Source of the DNA: Minisyncoccota bacterium
GTDB taxonomy: Bacteria > Patescibacteriota > Minisyncoccia > Phycocordibacterales > JAQTLZ01
NCBI GenBank assembly: GCA_028711065.1
Contig: JAQTSY010000009.1
Location: forward strand, 1-40,987
Length of the DNA stretch: 40,987 nt
Direction: 5' to 3'
The position numbers and the translations under genes are program-made. The notes under the pieces are model-generated. The model did not search any database, was not told where the DNA came from, and saw only the letters and a list, made by a program, of their open reading frames with translations. Below are positions 4,185 to 25,659 of the stretch, piece after piece. Numbering within the stretch: the first letter of the stretch is position 1; each line of letters begins with the position of its first letter.

Positions 4185-4230
4185 AATACACAGCAAAAAA
4201 CCGCCTTCGGGCGGTTTTTTGCTGTGTATT
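4185..4230. terminator. bidirectional intrinsic terminator, perfect 21-bp arms
   Basis: AATACACAGCAAAAAACCGCC-TTCG-GGCGGTTTTTTGCTGTGTATT. Confidence 0.9.
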
Positions 4231-4246
4231 CTGCTTTCGCGAAAAG

Positions 4247-4636
4247 TTACTTCAGTTCGACTTTCCCCCCCGCCTCCTCAATCTTCTTCTTCACAGCCTC
4301 CGCTTCCTCCTTCTTCATTCCTTCCTTGAGCATCTTTGGAGCAGCGTCTACGAGGTCCTTTGCTTCCTTGAGTCCGAGGGCAAGAACTTCTTTCACTACT
4401 TTAATAACAGCAATCTTCTGTGCACCAGCATCTTTGAGTTCAACATTGTACGTTGATTTCTCTTCTGCCGCTGGACCCGCTGCCGCTGCTGCAGGACCTG
4501 CAACTGCTGCTGCAGATACACCGAATTTCTTTTCCAATACTTTCACGAGTTCGTTCAATTCAAGAACAGACATTTTCTCAACGCTCTCTACGAGTGCGTG
4601 GAATTTTGCCGGAACTTCTACTTTTGTATCTTCCAT
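4247..4636 (-). CDS. rplL: 50S ribosomal protein L7/L12
   Basis: [11 protein letters not shown], Ala-rich hinge, [54 protein letters not shown]. Confidence 0.97.
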
Positions 4637-11206: not shown

Positions 11207-11228
11207 AAGCAAAAACCGCCCTTTCGGG
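11207..11228 (+). repeat. 22-bp direct repeat, copy 1 (half-terminator)
   Basis: AAGCAAAAACCGCCCTTTCGGG, identical to 11323-11344. Confidence 0.9.
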
Positions 11229-11231
11229 TGA

Positions 11232-11313
11232 GGAGCAGGCAGGAACCTGCTCCGCAAGACCTTGAGCATTCTGTAGTCAGAATGTGAAAGGTGTACAGCT
11301 CCTGTAAGGAGGA
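11232..11313 (+). ncRNA. structured repeated element, copy A (candidate RNA motif or mobile element)
   Basis: hairpin GGAGCAGG..CCTGCTCC, block GCAAGACCTTGAG, hairpin CATTCTG-TAGT-CAGAATG, block GAAAGGTGTACAGCTCCTGTAAGGAGGA; same layout at 24518-24589 minus. Confidence 0.6.
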
Positions 11314-11322
11314 CTTTTGTGC

Positions 11323-11356
11323 AAGCAAAAACCGCCCTTTCGGGCGGTTTTTGCTT
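11323..11356. terminator. bidirectional intrinsic terminator
   Basis: AAGCAAAAACCGCCC-TTTC-GGGCGGTTTTTGCTT. Confidence 0.9.
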
Positions 11357-24498: not shown

Positions 24499-24517
24499 GA
24501 AATTATGTCTTTGATAT

Positions 24518-24589
24518 TCCTCCTTACAGGAGCTGTACACCTTTCGCTTTTTGATTACAAAACACTCAAGGTCTTGCGGGACGGGTCCC
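24518..24589 (-). ncRNA. structured repeated element, copy B, in metG 5'UTR
   Basis: minus: GGGACCCGTCCC-GCAAGACCTTGAG-TGTTTTGTAATCAAAAA-GCGAAAGGTGTACAGCTCCTGTAAGGAGGA, blocks identical to copy A. Confidence 0.6.
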
Positions 24590-25659
24590 TACCCTTCCCT
24601 CACCTTGGTCAGATGTCCGAATTTATTCTTTCGCACATCAGTATAATATTCCATAAACACCGCTGCGACAGGCACTGAAAGAAGCACACCGAGAAATCCT
24701 GCGAGCCTCCATCCAACAAGAAGCGAGACGATAACAAGAATCGGCGAAATCCCCACTATTTTATTTACCACTAAAGGATAGATGAGGTGATTTTCAAACT
24801 GCTGAACAATAACGTACAAAGCGAGCACTAAAAGTGCGAGAGGAGTTCCTCCGCTCACAAACGCAATAGCAACACCTGGAATTGCAGAGAGGATCGGGCC
24901 GAAAAGCGGAATAATCTCCAAGAGTGCGGCGAGAACCGCAAGAAGAAGCGCATGCTTAATTCCAAAAATAGTAAGGCCGAGAAAATCCAAAACTCCAACA
25001 AGAAGACCGAGAAGAAGCTGGCCTTGGAGCCAAAGGCCGATCTTCTTTTGCGAGCGCTTCCACAAATCTGTTACGTAATTTTTATACCGAATAGGCGACG
25101 CAACTTGGAGAAAATCTTCCACTCCATCTTCCTGCACCGCAAAATAAAAAGAGAGCACGAATATGAGGATGAAAGAAAGCGCTCCGCCGAAGAGAATACT
25201 CGCGGTGTTGAAGAATCCGCTTGAAAATTGGTTCACGACTCCCCTCACCGATCCAATAACGCCTTGCAGATTAAACTGAGAAGAAAGGCCTTGGAGCGGA
25301 TTGTCGGGAGAGAGTATCCCCTGTTCTTTGAGGGTACCGAGGACATCAATCGAGTTTATTCGCTCCAGGAAACTTGTCGTCTCTGACAGAAGAGTCGGGA
25401 GAAGGAAATAAAAGACGGCTGCGAGAGCAAAAATAACAAGCACGTAGAGAATAATGACAGAAAATGTGCGAGGAATTTTTTTCTTTACGAGATATCGGGT
25501 TGCTGGCTCGATAGCCGAGGCAATAACAATCGCAGTCAAAATAATGAGAACAATATCTCTTAAAAAGTAGAGAGCGAGGACAAGGATAATAAACAGGAGA
25601 CTTTTGATGATAGTGCCCGTGGAGATGTGAATGAGGGTATTTTGGGGCTCATTGTTCAT
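24589..25659 (-). CDS. AI-2E family transporter / permease
   Basis: multi-TM protein with AI-2E-type C-terminal region (LLEIIPLFGPILSAIPGVAIAF). Confidence 0.88.
   Translation of the reverse strand: MNNEPQNTLIHISTGTIIKSLLFIILVLALYFLRDIVLIILTAIVIASAIEPATRYLVKKKIPRTFSVIILYVLVIFALAAVFYFLLPTLLSETTSFLERINSIDVLGTLKEQGILSPDNPLQGLSSQFNLQGVIGSVRGVVNQFSSGFFNTASILFGGALSFILIFVLSFYFAVQEDGVEDFLQVASPIRYKNYVTDLWKRSQKKIGLWLQGQLLLGLLVGVLDFLGLTIFGIKHALLLAVLAALLEIIPLFGPILSAIPGVAIAFVSGGTPLALLVLALYVIVQQFENHLIYPLVVNKIVGISPILVIVSLLVGWRLAGFLGVLLSVPVAAVFMEYYTDVRKNKFGHLTKVREG

Follow-up and report, generated by a model that had tools for sequence, protein, structure and literature searches.

The 40,987-nucleotide contig analysed here (the window), from a Minisyncoccota bacterium, carries two members, copies A and B, of what is probably an order-specific family of mobile elements with a conserved fold, inserting into hairpin loops, those of tRNA genes above all. 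The foremost targets would be the D-, anticodon, and T-loops of tRNAs, with terminator hairpins and palindromic repeats also entered. Insertion may be tolerated because the target is duplicated, an intact copy lying beside the element or within the loop of its hairpin P2, and the fold itself would be the feature recognized by a recombinase or host factor. Such a family, abundant and order-wide in bacteria known almost solely from their genomes, would account for the tRNA fragments and duplicated tRNAs found there, and it would provide a concrete case of essential, single-copy tRNA genes being invaded by a tiny element, with an intact copy surviving next to the element or within it.

Architecture and covariation of the fold

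The element is short (about 75–170 nt; the unit as a whole, about 75–250 nt) and has the architecture GTGAG–P1–GCAAG–P2(ACCTT/AAGGT)–GTGTACNG–P3(NNCC-TGTAA-GGNN). An earlier note on this DNA had described two copies, and both are present where it placed them (A, 11227–11317 on the plus strand; B, 24604–24514 on the minus strand). The blocks GCAAGACCTTGAG and GAAAGGTGTACAGCTCCTGTAAGGAGGA are, as it stated, identical between the copies, and the hairpins are unlike in sequence yet paired in both. The features of the window are as follows (bit scores are for covariance model CM R1).

11207–11228, plus strand: left copy of the duplicated target, comprising the 5' arm and loop of a terminator hairpin; a single copy is found at the syntenic site of a close relative (G001:C22, L139)
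11227–11311, plus strand: copy A, from GGTGAG to P3 (103.6 bits)
11232–11253, plus strand: copy A P1 hairpin, GGAGCAGG/CCTGCTCC; double changes in 8/8 P1 pairs of alignment A3
11259–11292, plus strand: copy A P2, with the ACCTT/AAGGT base, a GA/GA internal loop, and the inner hairpin CATTCTG/CAGAATG
11293–11298, plus strand: copy A, end of the conserved P2–P3 linker, GTGTACAG
11299–11311, plus strand: copy A P3 hairpin, CTCC-TGTAA-GGAG; covariation in 195 instances
11311–11322, plus strand: GGACTTTTGTGC, probably the decayed 3' arm of the interrupted terminator, judged by eye from its resemblance to GGGCGGTTTTTGCT
11323–11344, plus strand: right copy of the duplicated target, within the intact terminator 11324–11355
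24514–24604, minus strand: copy B, whole element (97.5 bits)
24589–25659, minus strand: ORF upstream of copy B, membrane protein, with its stop codon inside the copy B P1 loop
23068–24498, minus strand: ORF downstream of copy B, which we take from its N-terminal sequence to be metG (methionyl-tRNA synthetase)

A covariance model was built from 20 copies. Among 101 homologues, 93.3% of the cells are paired and 22 of the 25 pairs show double changes, the doubly changed cells numbering 480 against 136 ± 11 in shuffles; when the partner was slid by 1 to 3 columns as a control, pairing dropped to 35–52%. Sequence turnover with pairing kept, the pattern that the earlier note had read from two copies, is thus borne out, and the further homologues and covariation on which it had made its case depend were both found. 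The ACCTT/AAGGT base of P2 is 99% paired across the family, and GGT, TAC, and G of the linker are invariant in the 39 core sequences of alignment A4. In 195 instances, P3 contributes 770 Watson-Crick and 2 G-U cells and 8 mismatches; the previously proposed CTCC/GGAG pairing covaries there and is genuine. The TACAG/CTGTA pairing proposed with it lacks conservation: in GTAC(A/T/C)G the middle base is free, and the TGTAA loop is nearly fixed. The scarcity of G-U among standard pairs (13 of about 530 in P1, 2 of 772 in P3) fits DNA hairpins or arm-to-arm correction at least as well as RNA.

P2 occurs as form 1 (ACCTT-GAG..GA-AAGGT), form 2 (ACCTTTTG..CAAAAGGT), and form 3 (CCCGATTG..CAATTGGGG); a “form 4” (GGYCGGAG-hairpin-CGAGRC ... 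TGTGAC) was identified by eye. A general outer stem formed by the flanks of GTGAG-type copies was rejected (5.17 versus 4.95 ± 0.10, not significant). At L113, at L118, and in copy B, the upstream gene ends within the element, its stop codon falling in the P1 loop (GGG-TAG/TAA-GGACCC).

Distribution of the family

The 28-mer 3' block, with up to 3 mismatches, matches 8 places in the source genome (974 kb; G000), while the reversed-pattern control gave no matches in 60 genomes, and chance can therefore be set aside. The core-only covariance model raises the copy number in this genome to at least 13, well beyond the two-copy element that had been described. Matches of the covariance model (with rough E-values from a short calibration) were obtained in 200 of 397 sampled genomes of the order, often with at least 10 candidates per genome. 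In a phylum-wide sample of 380 genomes, the core-only model found the family in 10, all of which belong to its own order; in this sample the family is order-specific. Every hit in a scan of named genomes came from Patescibacteria or from unclassified bacterial bins, and the carriers with a name were Zambryski-, Kaiser-, Nomura-, Taylor-, Lloyd-, and Vogelbacteria and related bacteria; one viral contig also has a match. No family of Rfam 15, which by the earlier note would have made the element a known one, overlaps it at gathering score, and no description of it was found in the literature searched. Apparently, this is a large, undescribed family of short structured mobile elements.

Insertion sites in terminators, other hairpins, and tRNA genes

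Presence and absence at orthologous sites, as is typical of a non-autonomous mobile element, were observed when the source genome was compared with two close relatives (G001 and G002) by synteny. Copy A is inserted into a terminator hairpin, the target being duplicated around it: a repeat of 20–22 nt, composed of the terminator 5' arm and loop, lies on both sides (11207–11228 and 11323–11344), and in G001 a single terminator without the element is found at the syntenic site. The strong terminator reported 3' of copy A does exist, and it is explained as the intact duplicate of the interrupted hairpin. Copy A and the gene whose terminator it entered lie on opposite strands. Two insertions at a tRNA-Val locus of the source genome are missing from the G002 site: one, of form 1, lies in a broken 5' copy of the tRNA, and the other, of form 3, is accompanied by 19 nt repeated from the tRNA 3' end. 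L116 and L114 are clean insertions within a hairpin, with no target repeat and with empty sites in G000. L103 (G000:C17), whose site is empty in G001, interrupts the start of a uvrD-like gene, and a second, synonymously different start follows 3' of the element. In G002 (L112), a composite insertion lies downstream of rplL, and the syntenic site without insertion corresponds to 4205–4272 (minus strand) of the window. Among 10 copies each of G000 and G002, only the metG copy (copy B) occupies a shared site.

Target repeats measure 19–36 bp at copy A and the tRNA-Val copies; over all sites they may be absent or exceed 36 bp, so that no single insertion chemistry covers all cases. With two to three genomes compared per site, we infer gain as the direction of change; most comparisons have no outgroup, and some empty sites could therefore be precise losses. 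The empty-site comparisons in genus g142 involve sequences too diverged for the junctions to be placed. A search of the flanks for enriched k-mers that would extend the shared consensus returned only tRNA, nested-element, and low-complexity words. Two further arrangements were noted. At L119 (G001:C55), as at L103, the element lies near the start of a uvrD-like gene, with a truncated start upstream and a synonymously different second start downstream. At L082–L087 (G064), L091 (G358), and L094 (G353), it sits in the middle of a longer palindromic repeat with the terminal inverted repeats GTGARTTACGAAA or CTGTCTTTGCG.

The link to tRNA genes was measured on 115 loci chosen solely by the 3' block, with 111 elements counted. 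Thirty-seven of the 111 are no more than 150 nt from a tRNA gene, compared with 3.2% of random positions (p about 2e-27), and 36 of these are in the sense orientation and 1 is antisense. The element interrupts broken tRNA copies in the D-, anticodon, or T-loop, and an intact copy usually adjoins it or is contained in the P2 loop; an intact tRNA and a displaced tRNA fragment thus bound the insert, as is looked for in integrative elements. In broken copies of tRNA-Glu, -Pro, and -Phe, the element is 3' of the anticodon loop, with the intact copy adjoining.

The T-loop type has a usual order: intact tRNA, terminator, complement of tRNA positions 66–73, P1 (24–26 nt in most), complement of 54–65 ending in ...CGAA, (G/A)ACCTT-P2-AAGGTGTACNG-P3, and a copy of the tRNA 3' end. 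About 15 tRNA species show this layout, the complement in each case being that of the tRNA concerned. The 12-mer complementary to 54–65 agrees at 10 or more of 12 positions with its own tRNA in 26 of 36 cases, versus 16% for other tRNAs; the tRNA 3' end is repeated 3' of the element in 19 of 38, versus 2.4%. The breakpoints of this type coincide with tRNA helix boundaries (53/54 and 65/66). We tentatively suggest, while regarding it as rather unlikely, that the T-loop type is a guide-bearing element: its complements of 54–65 and 66–73, with P1 between them at the acceptor/T-stem boundary, would pair with the target tRNA and set both the insertion site and the duplicated stretch, and variants with a spare intact tRNA in the P2 loop would rescue the broken essential tRNA. 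If the tRNA-complementary segments do act as guides, this would be a new mode of insertion-site choice.

Nested arrangements were read from the sequence, with tRNAs called by ARAGORN and core matches by the covariance model. In one genus, the tRNA-Ile gene is free of the element in 2 genomes and carries the T-loop type in 1; in 4 genomes, a broken outer tRNA-Ile carries an antisense element in its anticodon loop, and the P2 loop of this element encloses an intact tRNA-Ile; in one of these four, another structured module also interrupts the outer D-loop. At L105 (2039–2247; G000:C9), a complete tRNA-Phe occupies the P2 loop, surrounded by broken tRNA-Phe pieces and structured modules. None of 195 instances was found to be an autonomous version carrying an ORF in its P2 loop; the only genes found there are tRNA genes. 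Another structured module that recurs (L112, L120, L105, L083, L087, and L374) consists of GGYCGGAG-hairpin-CGAGRC and, after it, a GGTCGC..GTGACC hairpin; it is likewise found in tRNA loops, sometimes hosts the element, and has no Rfam match in the loci searched.

Alternative readings, related systems, and the mobilizing enzyme

A functional RNA that benefits the host (as a small RNA, a ribozyme, or an RNA linked to tRNAs), spread by duplication and transfer and kept for its function, would also produce strong covariation, and the 36:1 sense bias beside tRNAs speaks for it, as does the conservation at two shared sites. Copy B is identical to its G002 counterpart at 91 of 91 positions, whereas 45 and 53 differences are found in the two 400-nt flanks (about 12%); counted from the start of the element, the identity continues for 150 nt and reaches into metG. 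At the L113/L118 site, P3 has changed from CACC/GGTG to CTCC/GGAG, a compensatory change of both arms, and the core is otherwise identical from GCAAG on. Conservation above the flanks at these two sites means that the copies are not all dead insertions, and gene conversion or arm-to-arm correction could be another cause of it. However, orientation to protein genes is near random in the 138 placed instances (upstream gene, 73 co-oriented and 50 opposed; downstream gene, 60 and 69), presence is sporadic even inside one genus, and the near absence of G-U from P1 and P3 is unusual for a sequence selected purely as RNA. We consider a functional RNA unlikely.

Mobility at the RNA level, in which the RNA enters loops of tRNAs or other transcripts, is reverse transcribed, and is recombined into the genome, would fit the sense bias at tRNAs, the use of exposed tRNA loops, and the clean insertions that lack target repeats. 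It appears quite improbable, however, given that copy A is antisense to the gene of the terminator it entered, that antisense insertions occur at tRNA-Ile, and that the reverse transcriptase domain RVT_1 is missing from 12 of 20 high-copy genomes, complete ones included. With the enzyme in just 8 of the 20, a retroelement was rejected.

Passive template switching during replication at palindromes, with the arms perfected by quasipalindrome correction instead of by selection or an enzyme, agrees with the perfect Watson-Crick arms, hardly containing G-U, and with the inverted and direct copies of tRNA 3' ends. The core, however, is near-invariant across families of the order and confined to that order, which calls for selection or active spread, and whole-element insertions were observed; this reading is very unlikely.

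A cis-regulatory RNA controlling metG or other downstream genes as a riboswitch or translational switch, as in the Shine-Dalgarno/pseudoknot switch envisaged by the earlier note, is extremely improbable: metG follows copy B, and typA and two uvrD-like genes follow other copies, but the near-random orientation argues against a riboswitch, there is no leader bias, many copies are directly 5' of terminators or in convergent regions, the proposed Shine-Dalgarno pairing (TACAG:CTGTA) does not covary, and the element is not sense-upstream of a coherent gene set.

For the mobile element that we favor, no integrase gene was found inside the element units. The Y1 transposase (PF01797) is absent from the source genome with its at least 13 copies, as well as from G012, G014, and G039. 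Y1_Tnp occurs in 249 of the 397 genomes and shows a mild association with presence of the element (odds ratio 2.5, p 2e-5, uncorrected for kinship), and 54 element-bearing genomes have none; at 30 Y1 loci, no element was found nearby except for one weak match (E 0.056). The element requires neither a Y1 transposase nor a reverse transcriptase. tRNA loops are classic sites of tyrosine integrases. Our most conservative guess would be a trans-acting recombinase working on hairpin loops, by analogy with such sites and with the intact-plus-displaced tRNA signature of integrative islands (PMC4383910). As in the tRNA-targeting islands catalogued by Islander (PMC4383910), a tRNA is split, an intact tRNA is regenerated, and a displaced fragment and direct repeats remain; unlike them, the unit is about 75–250 nt long, has no integrase, uses many tRNAs and any tRNA loop, and can hold an intact tRNA within its own P2 loop.

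Group I and II introns and IStrons (PMC4227781) are likewise structured and found in tRNA loops or near terminator hairpins, but the element has no intron core by Rfam, and its removal could not restore the broken tRNA, whose halves miss segments; a group I or II intron was rejected on these grounds. A group I intron was noted separately in a tRNA gene at L106 (1746–1968, minus strand; Rfam RF00028, 54.5 bits). T-box leaders share a structure with segments pairing with one particular tRNA, whereas the element complements the tRNA 3' half (54–73), lies beside that tRNA gene and not in an aminoacyl-tRNA synthetase leader, and has no T-box match in Rfam. Integron attC sites are also folded recombination sites with variable hairpins and conserved unpaired bases, but the element is free of cassette arrays and, by eye, of attC core-site features.

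REP/BIME sequences moved by RAYT (Y1) and other small mobile repeats (PMC2229807) resemble the element in being short, hairpin-rich, intergenic, and multicopy and in encoding no protein of their own. The conserved fold of the element is far more complex, however, and a RAYT/REP system was rejected on the absence of Y1 from G000 and other high-copy genomes and on Y1 loci that are essentially free of the element. The RAYT-like Y1 genes present in this order (L308, L310, and L312–L316) are flanked by different, short perfect palindromes of their own, for example TGTCAAGGACAGTCCTTGACA.
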